Below are positions 7,407-36,107 of a DNA stretch of 64,000 nt, piece by piece; the first letter of the stretch is position 1, and each line of letters starts with the position of its first letter. The DNA lies in the NCBI RefSeq assembly GCF_007990505.1, contig NZ_AP019822.1, positions 372,001 to 436,000 on the forward strand, given 5' to 3'. The notes below the pieces were generated by a model. It had not been told where the DNA came from. It was given only the letters and a program-made list of their open reading frames with translations, and made no database searches. The DNA is from Pseudoleptotrichia goodfellowii. Lineage in GTDB: Bacteria > Fusobacteriota > Fusobacteriia > Fusobacteriales > Leptotrichiaceae. The position numbers and the translations under genes are program-made.

Positions 7407-9139
7407 CCTAAATTCCCGAAGAATTATACATATGAAAAAAGGACATAGAATTAGTCTTTTTCTATAATAATTCTTCAGGAAATTTAATATCCATATATTT
7501 AAATATTTCTTTCTGTTTCTTTGTTACTTCTCCCAATTTAAGTTTTTCATTACCTCTTTCATAACTTTCTATCAAGTCCAATTCATCAAGAAGTTCCTGT
7601 GTTGTGTATTTCTTATATAATTCTTTTTCACTCATCTTATTTTTTATATACGATAGCATTACTAATGACACGAATGTTACAAATATTTTTCCATCCATTG
7701 TAGGTTTTGATGATACTCTTAATCTTCTTGCATCAAGTCGGTCTTTTATATTATGAAATGCTTTCTCTGCTACATCTTTTGTCTATATATACTTAATATT
7801 TCTCTTGCTTCAAGATTTTCATTACTTATCAAACTGAAATAACCATATTTTTTCATATGTTTTTCTATAATATCATCTTTTGCTACAGCAATTATATTTT
7901 CTTTTTCAACTTTAATATCGAAATATTTCCTATAGTCTTCGACTCTTTTTTCATTTTCTACATTATTTTCTATATCTGTTTTTAATTTAATCAGGTATTC
8001 TGTAAAATCTTTATCTTCTTTTAAAGCTTTTTCATCATCAAAAAACACATACAAGTAAAGATACTTCTTATTTTCCTTGTCTGTATCGTCCCACATAAGT
8101 ATTTCTTTTTTACCATATATATTATATTCAGCTATATAATTAGTAAATTTCTTAATATCTTTTACTTTTTCTATTCTTTCTTTTATTATTTTTGATGATG
8201 ACTTTGTTCCTACAATAAATTTAAATTTATTATTCATGAGTTCATCTATATTGTTTTTACTGTAGAATCCTCTATCCATCACTAATTTAGGTTTCTTAAC
8301 TCCTATATACTGAACATCTTTTATTAATCTTCTAACTGTTGACACATCAACAATGTTTCCTGGTAAAACTCTATAGTAAAAAGGCAATCTTGACTTTTCT
8401 CCATACAAAATTGCAAGATTGATTTGTGCTAATGTATCATTTTCCTTATTATATCCGTATCTCATTTGATTAATAGCTTTTGAATAAGATGATATGCTTG
8501 TTGTATCATAAGCCCAATACTCATCTTCTTTCAACTGTTCAGCCTGTAATTTAAAGAAATTGTTTTTTCCGCTTTCATTTATTTCTGAAAACATTTCACT
8601 TATTCTTTGAGAAGTTAGTTCACTTCTGTTAAATGTTTTATGAATTTTACTCCATTTTTCATATCTTGATATAGGACTATCTTTTCTAATATCAGATATT
8701 GTGCAACAGATAAAATTTCTTTGTACAAATCAGGAAAACATTCTTTAAGATTAGAAGTCAGTCCCAATTTTTTAGCAATAAGATTTAAAAGCAGATTAGC
8801 ACCATAAAATTTACGCTTATCATTTTGAGCTTTATTTTCTTCCAATTTCTTTTTTGGAGTGGAAGTAGGTACAATTTGTCCAGTAAGAGGGTCCTTAATA
8901 CCGATTAATTTTCTTTTAGATTTAGATTTTTTTTCAGATTTATCCCAATAGTTAATAGATTCATAAACATAAGTTTTATTGTATTTTTTATTATATAGAA
9001 AAACTAAAGAAGCCATAAGATTATCACCTATGTATAATTATACATAGAAATAAAGAAAAAGTCAAGAAAAAAATGTAGAAAAAAGCAATAAAATTAATCT
9101 TTTTTCTACTTCATATGTTTATTTCTTCGGAAATTTAGG
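7407..9139 (-). mobile_element. IS1634-family insertion sequence, degenerate
   Basis: About 1.73 kb bounded by imperfect inverted repeats of about 30 bp. The left end reads CCTAAATTCCCGAAGAA and the right end, on the other strand, CCTAAATTTCCGAAGAA; both continue to CATATGAA. The flanks TTAAAT and TAAAAT are similar but not identical, so a target duplication is possible but eroded. It carries one transposase reading frame broken twice. Its insertion separates the structured segment on the left from the phosphatase gene on the right. Confidence 0.8.
7462..9016 (-). pseudogene. IS1634-family DDE transposase, interrupted by two frameshifts
   Basis: Three consecutive reading-frame pieces make one transposase. 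Piece 1 (start ATG 9016, AGGTGAT upstream) has the family N-terminus (INYWDKSEKKSKSKRKLIGIKDPLTG is split over this part). Piece 2 (about 7770-8685) holds the first two acidic residues, in YWAYDTTSISS and LVMDRGFYS. Piece 3 (7462-7776) continues with DVAEKAFHNIKDRLDARRL, carrying the third acidic residue, and ends at PEELL. Both joins need a -1 shift at the identical motif AAAAGAT (minus strand; T-runs at 8682-8685 and 7777-7780), where a five-A run would restore the frame. So it is a one-base loss in an A run at each place, or frameshifting. Most likely inactive. Confidence 0.8.
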
Positions 9140-28452: not shown

Positions 28453-29127
28453 ATGGGTGAAAATGAGGGACATAGAGAAAGGCTGAGAAAACGGTTTCTG
28501 ATGTCGGGAATCTCAGGATTTCATGATTATGAAGTGTTGGAACTTCTTTTGAGTTATGTTATAGTAAGAAGAGATTGTAAGAAAATTGCGAAGGATTTAC
28601 TTAATAAATACGGTGATTTGTATTCTTTACTGAAACAGTCTAAAGACGAACTGGAAACAAACAGTTTTATCACTGAAAGAATTGCAATATTTTTAAAAGT
28701 ATTATTTTCAATGTTGGAAGATCAGTTGTATAGGAAAATTCACAATGAAAGAATTGTAATTTCAAGTAACGTTCAGCTTCTGGATTATTTAGAATTTTCT
28801 CTTTTGAAAAGAGATATTGAAATTTTTAAAGTGTTATTTTTGAACACTCAAAATGAGCTTATACGAGAAGAAGAACTTTTTCAGGGAACTTTGGACCGAA
28901 GTACTATTTATGTCAGGGAATTGATGAAAAAGGTTTTGAAATACAATGCAAAATCTGTTATACTTGTACATAATCATCCTTCAGGTTCTTTGAAACCTTC
29001 GCAGTCTGATATAATATTGACAAAAAAAATTAAAGAAATATTTGAAAATGTCGAAATAAGATTGCTGGACCATATAATAATAAGTGAAAAAGGATATTTT
29101 AGTTTTTTAGAAGGTGGAATATTATGA
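28453..29127 (+). CDS. radC: RadC-family JAMM-domain protein
   Basis: A 224-residue protein of RadC length. The N-terminal helix-hairpin-helix-like part begins with GHRERLRKRFLMSGISGFHDYEVLELLL. The C-terminal JAB/MPN domain carries the metal motif HNHPSGSLKPSQSD (residues about 172-185), and the family FNTQNELIREEELFQGTLDRSTIYVREL is in frame. The name comes from an old E. coli DNA-repair allele; a deubiquitinase-like metallopeptidase fold is visible but the function is not settled. Start ATG follows GGGGG. It overlaps the next gene by 4 nt (ATGA-type). Confidence 0.93.
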   Translation: MGENEGHRERLRKRFLMSGISGFHDYEVLELLLSYVIVRRDCKKIAKDLLNKYGDLYSLLKQSKDELETNSFITERIAIFLKVLFSMLEDQLYRKIHNERIVISSNVQLLDYLEFSLLKRDIEIFKVLFLNTQNELIREEELFQGTLDRSTIYVRELMKKVLKYNAKSVILVHNHPSGSLKPSQSDIILTKKIKEIFENVEIRLLDHIIISEKGYFSFLEGGIL

Positions 29128-29636
29128 AGATTTTAAACATAAAATTTAGAAAAACAAAAAAAGTTTATCCCTTTTTAATAGGGAAATATGAAAATTATCA
29201 AAAAGGCGATCATGTAATAGTTGATACAATAAGGGGAGAACAGACAGGTATCGTTATAGGAATGACTGATAAATTCGGAGAAGAATCCGAAGAAAAAGAT
29301 GATGTAAAAATAAGGGAAGTAAAGAGAAAACTTACCGATAAAGAAGTCGAAAAATTAAAAGAGTTGGATGAAAAGGCAAATGATGCTTATTTTAAGTGTA
29401 AAAAAATAGTTAAAAGTATTTTACCTGAAATGAATTTAGTTATAGGGGAGTATACTTTTGATGAAAATAAGCTTATTTTTTATTTTACAGCTGAAAACAG
29501 ACTTGATTTCAGAGAATTGGTAAAAGAAGTAAATAAGACTTTCAAGAAAAGAGTAGAATTCTATCAAATAAAGCAAAATGATGAAGGGAGAATTTTAAGT
29601 GCATTTGGAAAATATGGGAAAGAGATATACTGGTAA
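29124..29636 (+). CDS. RicT-like PSP1-domain paralogue lacking the cysteine ligands
   Basis: A 170-residue protein that aligns over its whole length with residues about 30-200 of the next gene's product: EYTFDENKLIFYFTAENRLDF against EYTFDKKKLIFYFASEERVDF. It carries only the PSP1 part. At its end, where RicT has DCGSCGKTLCC, it reads SAFGKYGKEIYW: every Cys is replaced. It therefore cannot bind the iron-sulphur cluster of RicT and has no C-terminal half. It is translationally coupled to radC (4-nt overlap) and overlaps the intact ricT by 38 nt. The overlap is odd and may mark an ancient tandem duplication kept as a partner subunit. Confidence 0.75.
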   Translation: MKILNIKFRKTKKVYPFLIGKYENYQKGDHVIVDTIRGEQTGIVIGMTDKFGEESEEKDDVKIREVKRKLTDKEVEKLKELDEKANDAYFKCKKIVKSILPEMNLVIGEYTFDENKLIFYFTAENRLDFRELVKEVNKTFKKRVEFYQIKQNDEGRILSAFGKYGKEIYW

Positions 29637-30531
29637 TGAGAATGAACTTGATTCCGGTATTATCAATAAAATCAATGAGGATAGAACCATAGATGTGTAC
29701 TTTGAAACTTTTCAAAAGCGGTATTTTTTTCTTGACAATCCTGATTTTAGGGTAAAAATAAACGATAAAGTTCTGGTAGAGACTCAAATGGGTTTAGGAA
29801 TCGGAAAAGTTATAGGCATAAAATCAGGAAGAGTTGAAGAAAAAGAATCTTTAAAGAGGATTATAAGAGTAGCGGATGATAAGGATTTGGAAAAAAATAA
29901 AGAATTAAAAGAGGATTCGGTTAAAGCAGGATTTATATTCAGAAATAAACTGAAAAAGTATAATCTTAATTTAAAACTTGTTGCCACTGAATATACTTTC
30001 GATAAGAAAAAGTTAATTTTTTATTTTGCTTCTGAAGAAAGAGTAGATTTTAGGGATTTTGTAAAAGATTTGGCTGCAATATTCAAAGTCAGGATAGAGT
30101 TAAGACAAATCGGTGTAAGAGATTATGCAAAAATGGTTGGAGATTGCGGAAGTTGCGGAAAAACATTATGCTGTAAATCTTTTATAAACAAATTTGATTC
30201 AGTTTCAATAAAAATGGCAAGAGATCAAGGAGTAGTAGTTACTCCGTCAAAAATTACGGGAGTATGCGGACGTTTGAAATGCTGTATAGGATTTGAAAAT
30301 GATCAGTATAATGAAGTAAGAGAAAACTATCCGGCAGTGGGACAAACTGTAACAACCGAAGAAGGAAAAGGTAACGTTATAAGTATGAATATGCTGAATG
30401 ATTTGATATTTGTAAATATTCATGGAAAAGGTATAGGAAGATACGGATTGGCTGAAATACAGTTTGATGCGGAAGAAAAGAGAGAAATAGAGAAAAGACA
30501 GAATTGCTGTAATTTTATAGAAGGAAATTAA
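29599..30531 (+). CDS. ricT: RicT (YaaT)-type PSP1 protein with intact cysteine set
   Basis: A 310-residue protein. The GTG start at 29599 follows AAGGGAG at 9-nt spacing; ATG 29614 is an alternative. PSP1 domain occupies residues about 45-185 (KVLVETQMGLGIGKVIGI; EYTFDKKKLIFYFASEERVDFRDFV). Cysteine ligands follow in DCGSCGKTLCC (about 191-201) and GVCGRLKCC (about 228-236), the arrangement of RicT. With RicA and RicF, RicT binds [4Fe-4S] and controls RNA processing in Bacillus; RicA/RicF genes are not seen here. The last stretch has additional CC (QNCCNFIEGN). Confidence 0.88.
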   Translation: MHLENMGKRYTGNENELDSGIINKINEDRTIDVYFETFQKRYFFLDNPDFRVKINDKVLVETQMGLGIGKVIGIKSGRVEEKESLKRIIRVADDKDLEKNKELKEDSVKAGFIFRNKLKKYNLNLKLVATEYTFDKKKLIFYFASEERVDFRDFVKDLAAIFKVRIELRQIGVRDYAKMVGDCGSCGKTLCCKSFINKFDSVSIKMARDQGVVVTPSKITGVCGRLKCCIGFENDQYNEVRENYPAVGQTVTTEEGKGNVISMNMLNDLIFVNIHGKGIGRYGLAEIQFDAEEKREIEKRQNCCNFIEGN

Positions 30532-31358: not shown

Positions 31359-31832
31359 TTACAAAGAAATTAAATAATTTACAAGTTCTTTTTCTATTTC
31401 CTGATTATATTTTCCTGTTCTGAAATTGTATTTTATTTCATCATAATTTTCGGGATTTTCTTTCATCGCTTTTTGTACAACATTAGGAAATTCCAATAAA
31501 AATACCGACATATTATTTTCTTTTTCATAAACCAGTGTGGGAATTTTAACTGTTTCGGTCAATTTTTTCAATAATTCTTCGTTACCTTCTCTGGGCAGAT
31601 AGTTGACTTTTATATTACTGTTCAGTTCGGAAAATTTTTTCATAAAAGGAACTATGGCACGACAGTCGGGGCAGTAAACTTGAGCTAAACATAATATTTT
31701 TATTTCTTTGTTTATAGATTTTACAGCTTTTTCAGTTTCTTCGGAAAGAGTTATTTTATCTATAATTTTTAACTGTTTTTGTGAATATTCTTCGTTGTCG
31801 GAAAACTTTAAATAATCCTGAAATGTACTCAT
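31359..31832 (-). CDS. Thioredoxin-like protein with CPDC motif
   Basis: A 157-residue protein without signal peptide. Thioredoxin-fold segment ILCLAQVYCPDCRAIVPFMKKF carries the CxxC as CPDC (residues about 54-57), followed by the cis-Pro KIPTLVYEK. It matches the cytosolic thioredoxin_9 / YtpP-like group, which reduces disulphides; CPDC differs from the CGPC of general thioredoxin. Start ATG lies after AGAGGTGATAAA. It stands alone with a terminator and is divergent from the HAD operon. Confidence 0.85.
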   Translation of the reverse strand: MSTFQDYLKFSDNEEYSQKQLKIIDKITLSEETEKAVKSINKEIKILCLAQVYCPDCRAIVPFMKKFSELNSNIKVNYLPREGNEELLKKLTETVKIPTLVYEKENNMSVFLLEFPNVVQKAMKENPENYDEIKYNFRTGKYNQEIEKELVNYLISL

Positions 31833-31983
31833 TTTATCACCTCTAAATAATTTTATTATAATTATTATAAACCAAAAATCTTAAAAAATAAAGGTTAACT
31901 TTAAAAAAATTCCCAAAGTAAAGCAAAAACTTATTCTATTTATTTTTATATCAAAATATGCTAAAATAACTGAAGGAGGAAAA

Positions 31984-32787
31984 ATGTATAAAGCTGTAAT
32001 AAGTGATTTGGATGGAACATTATTGGATGAAAATCACCAAATAAACGATTTCACAATAGAAACCGTCAAAAAAGTAGTCGAAAAAGGAATAAAATTCTAT
32101 ATTGCAACAGGAAGAAGTTATTTCGGGGCTAAAGAAATAATGGATAAAATAAATCTGAAAATACCTTTGATTACTTCTAACGGAGCAAGAATAATGGACA
32201 GTGACGGTAACGAGATTTATATAAATAATATTGAAAAAAAATATCTTGATGAAATTTACAAAGTTGATTATAAATTCGTAGGGCAAAATATAATATTGAA
32301 CGGTTATTCGGGAAGTAACTGGTACATAGTTGAAGATGTTGTTGACTATTACAGAAAAAAAAGACCGGACAGAACATTTTTGCCTGAAGTTGTCAGTTGG
32401 AAAGAATTTATGGAAAAAGAATATACAAAAATTTTCTTTTTAGGACCTCATGACAAACTTTTAAAACTCGAAAAAATATTGAAAAAAGTGACTAATGAAG
32501 AAGTAAATGCAGTATTTGTTTCGGAAGGAAGTCTGGAAGTGTTTGATAAAAATTCGGATAAAGCAGTTGCTGCAAAGTATTTACTCGAAAAGGACGGGAT
32601 AAAATTAAGTGAAACTGTAGCTTTCGGAGACGGGTATAATGACTATGAGCTATTGAAAGAAGCAGGAAAAGGTTATCTTATGGGAAATTCTTTATACAGA
32701 TTGTTGGAAGGTTTGCCTGATTATGAAGTGATCGGCACAAATGAAAATAACGGAGAAGCTGAAAAATTAAGAGAATTATTTTTATAA
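31984..32787 (+). CDS. Cof-type HAD-IIB phosphatase (copy 1)
   Basis: A 267-residue protein of Cof size. Motif I is SDLDGTLLDE (nucleophile Asp8, acid Asp10), FYIATGRSY is motif II, Lys in NSDKAVAAKYL is motif III, and AFGDGYNDYELL is motif IV; the cap is the IIB type. Members remove phosphate from sugar phosphates, nucleotides or cofactors. Start ATG follows GAAGGAGG. The next gene is a CheY-like receiver, and the next is a second HAD protein about 55-60% identical in the visible stretches, so the two arose by duplication. Confidence 0.9.
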   Translation: MYKAVISDLDGTLLDENHQINDFTIETVKKVVEKGIKFYIATGRSYFGAKEIMDKINLKIPLITSNGARIMDSDGNEIYINNIEKKYLDEIYKVDYKFVGQNIILNGYSGSNWYIVEDVVDYYRKKRPDRTFLPEVVSWKEFMEKEYTKIFFLGPHDKLLKLEKILKKVTNEEVNAVFVSEGSLEVFDKNSDKAVAAKYLLEKDGIKLSETVAFGDGYNDYELLKEAGKGYLMGNSLYRLLEGLPDYEVIGTNENNGEAEKLRELFL

Positions 32788-32807
32788 AAACAGGATAGGA
32801 GAAAAAA

Positions 32808-33170
32808 ATGACAAAAACAGCATTAGTAGCAGACGATGCTTCATATATAAGAGAAGATATAAAAGATATACTGGAAGATCAGGGATACGAAGTTTATGAA
32901 GCGGCAGACGGAATGGAAGCTTTTGAAATGTACAAAAAAGTAAAGCCGACTATTGTAACAATGGATATTAATATGCCTAGAGTACACGGGATAAAAGCAA
33001 CACAACTAATTATAGATTATGATCCCCAAGCAAAAGTTATGTTGTGCAGTACGATGATAACTTTTCAGAATTATATAAAAATGGGAAAAGAAGCAGGAGC
33101 AAAAGGATTTTTATCCAAACCTTTTACAGATGAGGAATTTATGAACGAATTGTCAAAATTATTTTTATAA
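32808..33170 (+). CDS. Single-domain response regulator receiver (CheY-like)
   Basis: A 120-residue receiver without an output domain. Acidic pocket ADDASYIRED (residues about 8-10), phospho-acceptor Asp in TMDINMPRVHGIKA (residue about 54), Thr/Ser in LCSTM, and Lys in FLSKPF (about 103) are all present. Single receivers act as phosphate shuttles or by direct binding; no flagellar or chemotaxis gene is seen here. It starts 20 nt after the first HAD gene, behind TAGGAGA, and lies between two HAD paralogues, which suggests that it works with them. Confidence 0.9.
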   Translation: MTKTALVADDASYIREDIKDILEDQGYEVYEAADGMEAFEMYKKVKPTIVTMDINMPRVHGIKATQLIIDYDPQAKVMLCSTMITFQNYIKMGKEAGAKGFLSKPFTDEEFMNELSKLFL

Positions 33171-33197
33171 TTAAAATCGGAAACGGAGGTATAATTT

Positions 33198-34007
33198 ATG
33201 TATAAAGCGGTAGTAACTGATTTGGACGGGACATTACTCAATGATGAGCACAAAGTGTCCGAATTTACTAAAGAAACAGTCAGAAAAATAATAGATAAAG
33301 GAATAAAATTTTATATTGCCACAGGAAGAAATTACGGATTGGCAAAAGTAGTAAAAGATGAATTGGGAATAAATATTCCTCTTATTTCGTCAAACGGTGC
33401 GAGAATAAATGATGAAGACGGAAAAGTAATATATGAAGACGGCTTGGGAAGAAAAGAAATAGATGCAATTTTGAGTATTGATTACAAGTCTTTCGGAAAA
33501 GATATTCACTTAAATATATTTTCGGGAGATGACTGGATAATAACAAAAGGAACGTTGGAAGAAGTTATAAAAAGAGACGGAGAAACTTTTCCTCTGGATA
33601 TGATCGAAGTTCCTGAAAATGAACTGGGGAAAAGGGAAATATTGAAATTTTTCTATATAGGAAAGCATGAAAATCTAATCGAACTGGAAAAAGAAATATT
33701 GAAAAAAACTGATAATAATGTAAGTGTCGTATTTGTATCCGATGACTGTATGGAAGTCTTTTCAAAAACAGCAAATAAGGCAAATGCAGCTAAATTTCTA
33801 CTTAAAAGGGACGGCATAAATTCTGAAGAAACAGTCAGTTTCGGAGACGGAGAAAATGATTACGAGCTTTTAACAACCATGGGAAAAGGGCATGCAATGG
33901 GAAATGCCATATACAGACTTAAAAATTTGTTGCCGAAAGACTTTGAAATAATAGGAAAAAATTCAGATGACGGAGAAGCGAAAAAACTTATAGAGTTATT
34001 TTTGTAA
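33198..34007 (+). CDS. Cof-type HAD-IIB phosphatase (copy 2)
   Basis: A 269-residue paralogue of the gene at 31984 with the same motifs: TDLDGTLLND, FYIATGRNY, KANAAKFLLKRDG and SFGDGENDYELL. Catalytic residues are all kept, so both copies should be active; the cap regions differ most, so substrates may differ. Start ATG follows ACGGAGG, 27 nt after the receiver. It ends with a strong terminator. Confidence 0.9.
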   Translation: MYKAVVTDLDGTLLNDEHKVSEFTKETVRKIIDKGIKFYIATGRNYGLAKVVKDELGINIPLISSNGARINDEDGKVIYEDGLGRKEIDAILSIDYKSFGKDIHLNIFSGDDWIITKGTLEEVIKRDGETFPLDMIEVPENELGKREILKFFYIGKHENLIELEKEILKKTDNNVSVVFVSDDCMEVFSKTANKANAAKFLLKRDGINSEETVSFGDGENDYELLTTMGKGHAMGNAIYRLKNLLPKDFEIIGKNSDDGEAKKLIELFL

Positions 34008-34012
34008 AATAT

Positions 34013-34056
34013 AATCCTGCCAAACAGCTTTTAAAATGCTGAAAGCAGGATTTTTA
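34013..34056 (+). terminator. Terminator of the HAD-receiver-HAD operon
   Basis: Stem AATCCTGC / GCAGGATT with an internal CAGC...GCTG hairpin in the loop, then TTTTAAT. Confidence 0.85.
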
Positions 34057-34176: not shown

Positions 34177-34205
34177 TTAGGGGGAAATTCCCCCTAATTA
34201 TTTTT
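34177..34205 (+). terminator. G/C-rich palindrome between the HAD operon and sppA
   Basis: Stem TTAGGGGG / CCCCCTAA with a 5-nt loop, followed on the plus strand by TTATTTTTA. It ends at the sppA stop. No plus-strand gene directly precedes it; it may serve as a transcription barrier for both directions. Confidence 0.6.
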
Positions 34206-35991
34206 AAAATTTTATTTGGTAAGGTAAATAATACATAGGTTTATTTTTATTTTGCTCTATTAATTTATATTCGTCCATTATTTTTGAACTTCCCGGTAAT
34301 TTTGTTTCCAACTGGGAAGTCAGCTGGAATTTCTCAAATATATAAGAAGAAAGTAATTTCAATGTTTCTTTAAAATCTTTTTTAGCATAAATGTTTTCAA
34401 CTCTGTAATTATCGCCTAAGTTTAAATCACGGGCAAGAATTTTTATTGTTTCATCAAGAGTAGCAATACCGTCTACAAGATTAATTTCCTTTGCTTCACT
34501 TCCTAGCCAGATTTTACCCTGTGCATAATTTTCAAGCACTTGAGGAGCCATATTTCTGTTTTTGGAAACTCTCGATTTAAACTCGTCATAAGTGGCATTC
34601 ATGGATTCTATTATTTTATTTCTGGATTCGGTAGATAAAGGAACAAAAGGATCGAAAGTATCCGTATATTTTCCTTTGCTGATAGAGTTTGAGGTAACTC
34701 CGTATTTATTTTGAGCATTATAGAATTTAGGGAACATGGAGACAACTCCTATAGACCCTGTAATTGTGGCATCATTAGCAAAGACTTTTTTTCCGCTCAT
34801 AGATATATAATATCCTCCTGAAGCTGCAACTTCAGACATTGAAACATAAACAGGAACATTTATTTTTGAAAGCATCTGATAAATCATTTCCGAAGCAAGA
34901 GCCGACCCTCCCGGTGAATTAACCCTTAAAACGACACCTTTCAAATCTTTAATTTTTGAAAGCTCTTTCAATTTTTCCGCCATGTTGTCAGGAGATATGT
35001 ATATTCCCTGAGCTTCTTCATTATAAACTATAGGACCTTCAGCGTAAATTACCGCTATTGTACCTTTATCCTGATTCTGCTCTTCTATTCTTTTTCCGTT
35101 ATCGGCATAATAATCGTAAATATCTACTATATTATCTTCGTTTATTTGAAGTTTTGTCATTAAATCATTAAAATATTCAAGAGTATCAACAAAATTTTTA
35201 TCTCTTGCAGCAGAAGGAGTAAGATTCGTATCATCTCCGTTAAGTATATCGGCATTGAGTTTGTTTTTATCGAGTCTTCTGGCTTTTGAAACTTTATCAA
35301 GGAAAGAGTTGAATCTGCTTTCCAGAATACGTGTCAGCTCATTTCTTAATCCCGGAGACATTGTATCGGATGTATAATTTTCTCCATATGATTTAAAATC
35401 TCCGATACGGACAACTTCCATATCTACTCCGACATTTGAAAGCAGTTTTTTATAATATAAATCCGAGTAATGATATCCTGCCAGAGAAACTGAACCTGAA
35501 GCTGACGGCACCATTATTATTTCATTTGCTACAGAAGCCAGAGGATAATTGCTGTTATCCATATATGCTCCGAAAGCATAAACTTTTTTATTTTTATTTT
35601 TAATTTCCTGAAGTTTTTTAGAGATTTCTTCGGATTTTACTGAAGAAATATTTGTCTGATCAAGATTTATTATAATTCCTTTTATATTATCGTTATTTTT
35701 TATATCTTCCAAACTGTTAAGTACGTCCATATAAGAAATATTGTATTTTTTAGTTTCTCCGAATAGAGAAGTGTCAAGTTTGTCTTCGGATATTGAAGAA
35801 ACGTTAAGTAAAACATAGTTGTAATTTTTGGAAATACTGTCTTCGTCTTTTGCTTTGCTTATAATATAACCTATCAGTGAACTTAACAGTATAAAAAATA
35901 CAAAAAATAACAATGACAATTTTAAAAAGAAAGAGTATATTTCTTTAATTGTAAATAATAAAAATCTTTTTATAAAATCAAAAAATTTCAT
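34204..35991 (-). CDS. sppA: Signal peptide peptidase SppA, long (67K) type
   Basis: A 595-residue protein. The start at 35991 has AAGGAGG before the ATG, unlike the longer frame. One N-terminal membrane anchor (LSLLFFVFFILLSSLIGYI, residues about 25-43). Two tandem S49 peptidase domains: the first carries the catalytic Lys (IGDFKSYGENYTSD, about 203), the second the Ser (MSEVAASGGYYISM, about 400), as in the E. coli tetramer. It digests cleaved signal peptides in the membrane. It is divergent from the tRNA cluster. Confidence 0.93.
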   Translation of the reverse strand: MKFFDFIKRFLLFTIKEIYSFFLKLSLLFFVFFILLSSLIGYIISKAKDEDSISKNYNYVLLNVSSISEDKLDTSLFGETKKYNISYMDVLNSLEDIKNNDNIKGIIINLDQTNISSVKSEEISKKLQEIKNKNKKVYAFGAYMDNSNYPLASVANEIIMVPSASGSVSLAGYHYSDLYYKKLLSNVGVDMEVVRIGDFKSYGENYTSDTMSPGLRNELTRILESRFNSFLDKVSKARRLDKNKLNADILNGDDTNLTPSAARDKNFVDTLEYFNDLMTKLQINEDNIVDIYDYYADNGKRIEEQNQDKGTIAVIYAEGPIVYNEEAQGIYISPDNMAEKLKELSKIKDLKGVVLRVNSPGGSALASEMIYQMLSKINVPVYVSMSEVAASGGYYISMSGKKVFANDATITGSIGVVSMFPKFYNAQNKYGVTSNSISKGKYTDTFDPFVPLSTESRNKIIESMNATYDEFKSRVSKNRNMAPQVLENYAQGKIWLGSEAKEINLVDGIATLDETIKILARDLNLGDNYRVENIYAKKDFKETLKLLSSYIFEKFQLTSQLETKLPGSSKIMDEYKLIEQNKNKPMYYLPYQIKF

Positions 35992-36107
35992 TGGTAACCT
36001 CCTTAATATATCTGGAATTATATCATTTAAAATCTTAAATATCAACGTATAAAAAAATAAAATTTTTAGTATATGTCAAAAAAATATAAAAAAATTAAAA
36101 AAAAGTA

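Follow-up and report, generated by a model that had tools for sequence, protein, structure and literature searches.

An orphan CheY-like receiver paired with Cof-type HAD phosphatases across the Leptotrichiaceae: a possible acetyl phosphate-responsive unit

The window analysed here is a 64,000-nucleotide stretch of the Pseudoleptotrichia goodfellowii genome (NZ_AP019822.1, positions 372,001 to 436,000), in which three genes lie in tandem on the forward strand. The first, HAD1 (31984–32787, +), encodes a Cof-type HAD-IIB phosphatase of 267 aa with the motifs D8xD10GT, T42GR, K193 and GDGxND220, and is preceded by a probable ribosome-binding site, GAAGGAGG (31972–31983, +). This is followed by a CheY-like stand-alone receiver of 120 aa (32808–33170, +) and by a second Cof-type HAD-IIB phosphatase, HAD2, of 269 aa (33198–34007, +), which is 50% identical to HAD1 (133/267 residues). 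The intergenic gaps are 20 bp between HAD1 and the receiver and 27 bp between the receiver and HAD2, so no second promoter would be required downstream of HAD1. An intrinsic terminator ends the unit (34013–34052, +), with an 8-bp outer stem (ATCCTGC/GCAGGAT), an inner hairpin and then T5, and a folding energy of -15.9 kcal/mol (z = -4.18) which none of 200 shuffled sequences equalled. Outside the unit lie a divergent thioredoxin-like gene on the left (Thioredoxin_9 in Pfam; 31359–31832, −), belonging to an older synteny, and a convergent S49 peptidase gene on the right (SppA-like, by Pfam; 34204–36045, −), and no kinase or chemotaxis gene was seen adjoining the three genes in the window. A first-pass annotation had described a receiver between two HAD paralogues, in one operon with a single terminator and with no chemotaxis or kinase gene beside it, and the coordinates, the Pfam and NCBIfam matches, the HAD identity, the common strand, the short gaps and the hairpin all agree with that description. 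Elsewhere in the window we observed tandem similar ORFs of the same cluster with a slight overlap (29124–30531; 170 and 310 aa), also present in several relatives, and, at the left window end beside phage-like genes, transposase-like ORFs in two pieces (7770–9016).

We searched for the receiver in 33 Leptotrichiaceae genomes and then clustered the gene neighbourhoods. An orthologue was found in 32/33 genomes, the exception (G025) being an assembly that is 86% complete. In 30/32 loci the gene immediately upstream of the receiver is a complete HAD, and 31/32 loci, representing 10/11 genera, have one or more intact HADs adjacent to it; in G011 the upstream HAD is a decayed remnant with two intact HADs downstream, and G002 is the sole genome to keep the receiver with no HAD beside it. 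The HAD and receiver genes overlap by 4 bp in five genomes (G001, G003, G019, G027 and G028), which suggests translational coupling, and the gaps are often small elsewhere. The gene beyond the HAD varies by genus and may be thioredoxin-like, a methyltransferase, dicarboxylate-symporter-like or one of several unrelated genes, which indicates that the pair outlasts its surroundings. The thioredoxin-like and SppA genes are still near in many genera, and since this synteny is partly shared some of the adjacency may be passively inherited. With about 5–11 Hydrolase_3 matches per genome (ten genomes scanned), the probability of finding an upstream HAD in 30/32 loci by chance is negligible, and chance adjacency was ruled out by this conservation. 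Outside the Leptotrichiaceae, no HAD was found beside related receivers in any of 31 loci. As judged from comparative genomics, the HAD–receiver pair is a conserved unit of the Leptotrichiaceae. Of the three-gene order first proposed, it is this pair that is retained, whereas the second HAD is limited to the window's clade; neither a loss of order nor a receiver placed beside a kinase, which together would have spoken against a unit, occurred at the 32 loci.

Both window HADs match Hydrolase_3 in Pfam (1.4e-57 and 6.7e-60) and the Cof-type model TIGR00099 in NCBIfam, at 166 and 170.8 bits against a cut-off of 137. HAD motifs I–IV are intact in all 57 locus HADs, one HAD being cut off by a contig end. 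In a phylogenetic tree the locus HADs form one subfamily together with one further paralogue group encoded elsewhere in the genomes, and their grouping as a clade on their own received weak support (55%). A further copy lies downstream in the window's clade, and a third is present in Leptotrichia proper, motifs I–IV being retained in each; HAD2 is an older duplicate retained in the window's clade, and the core unit is one HAD and one receiver, with the HAD duplication specific to that clade. The closest solved relatives are Cof-type HAD-IIB enzymes, sugar-phosphatases among them, in which a large cap closes over small substrates, and the HAD is a predicted phosphatase for a sugar or cofactor phosphate.

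The receiver matches Response_reg in Pfam (5.3e-24, 85 bits over 120 aa). D9, D53, S81 and K104 are invariant in 32/32 orthologues and D10 is present in 31/32, and with its receiver fold, acidic pair, phospho-accepting Asp, Ser and Lys, and no output domain, the protein is a single-domain response regulator; a degenerate receiver was ruled out by conservation of the catalytic residues. Its description at first pass as complete holds for these five residues but less well for the switch aromatic F101, three positions before K104, which the window's receiver has but which C or L replaces in 9/32 orthologues, those of the reduced genomes; this element of classical CheY switching is therefore not conserved. 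C80, Y89 and E110 are invariant across the Leptotrichiaceae orthologues and uncommon among the CheYs compared, and the β4-α4 loop, which contains Y89, is one residue longer than in CheY. The receiver has CheYs as its nearest matches, and among solved structures it is closest to those of T. maritima CheY (1tmy/4iga), to which an AlphaFold model of the G014 orthologue compares with TMt 0.88–0.94 and 44–46% identity. In the receiver tree the 32 orthologues form one group that falls close to CheYs and apart from the OmpR-type receivers of the genome, although support for the deep branches is poor; a solitary receiver on a long branch, from the more distant genome G072, also falls within this group. 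The G072 receiver (L125:4413-6889) has the same longer loop, and its gene is flanked on one side by a glucose-type PTS EIIA gene and on the other by the gene of a 505-aa protein that matches lipase-3 weakly. A plasmid search for the receiver returned other receivers alone, at about 40–43%.

In four reduced genera (G001; G019, G020; G027, G028; G029-G032) the operon reads HAD, receiver, LrgA, LrgB. LrgB is present in 9/33 genomes and always two genes after the receiver, with otherwise one sub-threshold fragment. LrgA was read directly in three genomes, with LrgA/LrgB Pfam matches, and is presumed in the other lrgAB genomes, where an ORF on the opposite strand, or an LrgB frame of greater length, covers the space before LrgB. 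In S. mutans, LrgAB is a pyruvate uptake system (PMC6790026) that is tied to, and modulated by, Pta-AckA (PMC7355876), while lrgAB of S. aureus is under the control of LytR; acetyl phosphate phosphorylates LytR more rapidly than LytS does, and the isolated LytR receiver also accepts phosphate from this donor (PMC4830213). Neither the LytTR output domain nor the LytS partner of LytSR-type regulation was found here, the receiver being 120 aa alone, and the sensor in G019 and G020 is YesM-like with an AraC-type regulator and not LytS.

Weak CheW-domain matches, in 6/33 genomes, led to a CheA-derived protein with domains P3–P5 (E 1.6e-60 to T. maritima CheA; hhalign 99.9%) and an adjoining ~355-aa protein, encoded in 14–15 genomes. 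This gene pair occurs in six Leptotrichiaceae genera and lies elsewhere in the genome from the receiver; in Sebaldella-like genomes the cluster also includes two receptor-like proteins, CheW and a ROK glucokinase. In its model the ~355-aa protein has a helical bundle at the N terminus, together with a domain similar to P2, the CheY-binding domain of CheA (against 1u0s_A: probability 1.00, TMt 0.74, E 5.6e-3), and we tentatively assign it a P2-like domain. Aligned to CheA P1 with hhalign it was collinear, but without significance (probability 0.5%, E 0.12). A conserved histidine is absent from both proteins, and the ATP-binding G1 motif of the CheA-derived protein is present only in G004 and the Sebaldella-like genomes and lost in four genera. 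Both proteins are absent from the window's clade, and with no conserved histidine in the genomes that do have them, a dedicated CheA kinase for the receiver was ruled out. A chemotaxis CheY works with CheA/CheW and the flagellar switch FliM; of these partners, CheW was matched in only those 6/33 genomes and the CheA-like protein is degenerate or absent. Relatives have been described as non-motile (PMC3535699, PMC5646626). We infer that the receiver is the remainder of a lost chemosensory pathway.

No kinase adjoins the receiver in any of the 32 Leptotrichiaceae loci. HisKA was detected in 31/33 genomes, with a single HisKA kinase each in G001, G027 and G028; G019 and G020 have no HisKA and instead encode a YesM-like kinase with an AraC-type regulator, that of G019 carrying dCache and His_kinase domains. 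The genomes examined each retain one or more histidine kinases or YesM-type kinases, and among the types searched, with HATPase domains covered as far as PF02518 detects them, none is common to all receiver carriers. Among these types, the receiver has no cognate kinase of the kind that defines a two-component pair, either adjacent or common to all carriers. The acetate kinase gene ackA is present in 32/33 genomes, the exception being 82% complete, and acetyl phosphate should therefore be available family-wide, which makes it a plausible donor. Besides the receiver described here, the 2.29 Mb source genome has five that are clear, of which four are encoded near HisKA kinases and the fifth close to a HATPase_c protein; its seventh receiver is a poorly conserved orphan at 1478618 (L142:1274-1951), an OmpR-like regulator that starts MKILVCNKNEKS, has a receiver without the usual acidic pair and is probably phosphorylation-independent. 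The acetate kinase matches of three related Leptotrichia genomes (G010, G012 and G014) have one in-frame stop each, and G020 encodes a SpoIIE-type phosphatase with a weak internal receiver match (L140:2691-4088), with weak receiver matches also in similar-length ORFs of other reduced genomes.

Direct contact between the two proteins was assessed with a tethered AlphaFold model, for which the same-frame HAD–receiver pair of G014 was used with stops read as residues to give one chain. Both domains were modelled confidently, with an overall pTM of 0.64 that equals the HAD fraction of the chain (270/420), and so no interface was placed between them. As the alignment had only 33 rows and the phosphorylated state lies outside the model, this negative is weak. 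The signalling unit proposed at first pass is partly upheld, as a conserved gene unit, with no HAD–receiver contact in the AlphaFold model.

We favour control of the co-encoded HAD by a receiver charged with acetyl phosphate over co-expression alone, dephosphorylation by the HAD, an unlinked kinase and phosphate feeding, and rate it somewhat short of an even chance; among the links first proposed between the two proteins, the one in which the receiver controls the HAD ranks as most plausible. In this mechanism a CheY-derived single-domain receiver would have outlived its chemosensory pathway, co-expressed with one to three Cof-type HADs. A small-molecule donor would phosphorylate D53, acetyl phosphate made by the acetate kinase pathway being the likeliest candidate, with an additional donor possibly in whatever kinase each genome keeps. 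Phosphorylation would alter the surface around α4, where C80, Y89 and E110 lie, so that the receiver may bind the HAD and adjust its hydrolysis of a sugar or cofactor phosphate, and in the lrgAB-bearing genera the receiver may act on pyruvate exchange too. Such a unit would tie the pools of sugar phosphates and pyruvate to overflow metabolism. The fullest version, a kinase-less unit in which an orphan CheY charged by acetyl phosphate directly controls a sugar-phosphatase, and LrgAB in host-adapted relatives, having outlived the decay of CheA to a histidine-less scaffold, is possible but on the doubtful side.

The strongest alternative is that the genes are only co-expressed, the HAD being a housekeeping phosphatase on the same transcript and the receiver serving a different target, which in some genera might be the P2-like protein that survives from CheA. 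The modelled chain without an interface and the G002 receiver without a HAD are what this would predict, and the P2-like protein, encoded elsewhere in the genome beside a decayed CheA, resembles a CheY-binding domain. Against this, the pair survives a change of both flanks in 10/11 genera, and the window's clade has no CheA-like gene yet has kept and multiplied its HADs; we consider co-expression alone a substantial, if minority, prospect. That the HAD is instead the receiver's own phosphatase, draining its aspartyl phosphate, is unlikely. HADs do hydrolyse phosphoryl groups via an aspartate, and dedicated receiver phosphatases exist (CheZ, CheC/CheX and Rap), but to our knowledge all of these are unrelated to HADs, the closest solved relatives here are cap-bearing Cof-type enzymes acting on small substrates, sugar-phosphatases included, and the tethered model placed no interface. 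Ordinary two-component signalling from a kinase encoded elsewhere would suit the intact acid pocket of the receiver and the kinases that these genomes keep, yet the carriers have no kinase type in common, and the acceptor histidine is missing from the CheA-like protein, as is the ATP-binding motif in four genera, which makes this distinctly improbable. The first-pass suggestion that the HAD feeds the receiver from its own phospho-aspartate has only gene proximity in its favour and is very improbable, since the HAD phospho-enzyme is normally hydrolysed by water, we know of no aspartate-to-aspartate transfer, and no contact was predicted.

Single-domain receivers are common and few have a known partner, and the literature searched held no paper joining 'single-domain response regulator' with 'haloacid dehalogenase'. 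A family-wide receiver–enzyme pair where kinases are scarce would test whether a receiver can work in vivo on acetyl phosphate alone, would show a chemotaxis part re-used after loss of motility, and would offer a way into the control of carbon flux in oral and vaginal anaerobes that have been little studied.

Among known systems, the window HADs share their fold and all four motifs with YigL-like Cof-type HAD-IIB phosphatases (closest solved structure 3pgv), but score 181 and 179 bits against the YigL equivalog, below its cut-off of 386, and differ in their constant pairing with a receiver. The receiver in turn shares a single domain and the same catalytic residues with chemotaxis CheY, whereas it lies in no flagellar or chemotaxis operon, is accompanied by no intact CheA, carries E110 in place of the usual R/N/K, an extra loop residue and an invariant Y89, and has a variable switch aromatic. 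LytSR-lrgAB and LytST-lrgAB likewise link a receiver to lrgAB, as in the four reduced genera; however, the Leptotrichiaceae unit has no LytTR DNA-binding domain or adjacent LytS, has a HAD in the operon, and has lrgAB in those four genera and not in that of the window. A parallel in arrangement is Rv3143 with NADH dehydrogenase (PMC9274095), likewise an orphan receiver without an output domain that lies beside the enzyme in many genomes, although that enzyme is of another class and its physical binding has been shown, whereas the receiver–HAD link is known from the genes. In that case the receiver binds NuoD and changes the activity of complex I, an example of direct action by an orphan receiver on a metabolic enzyme encoded next to it (PMC9274095).
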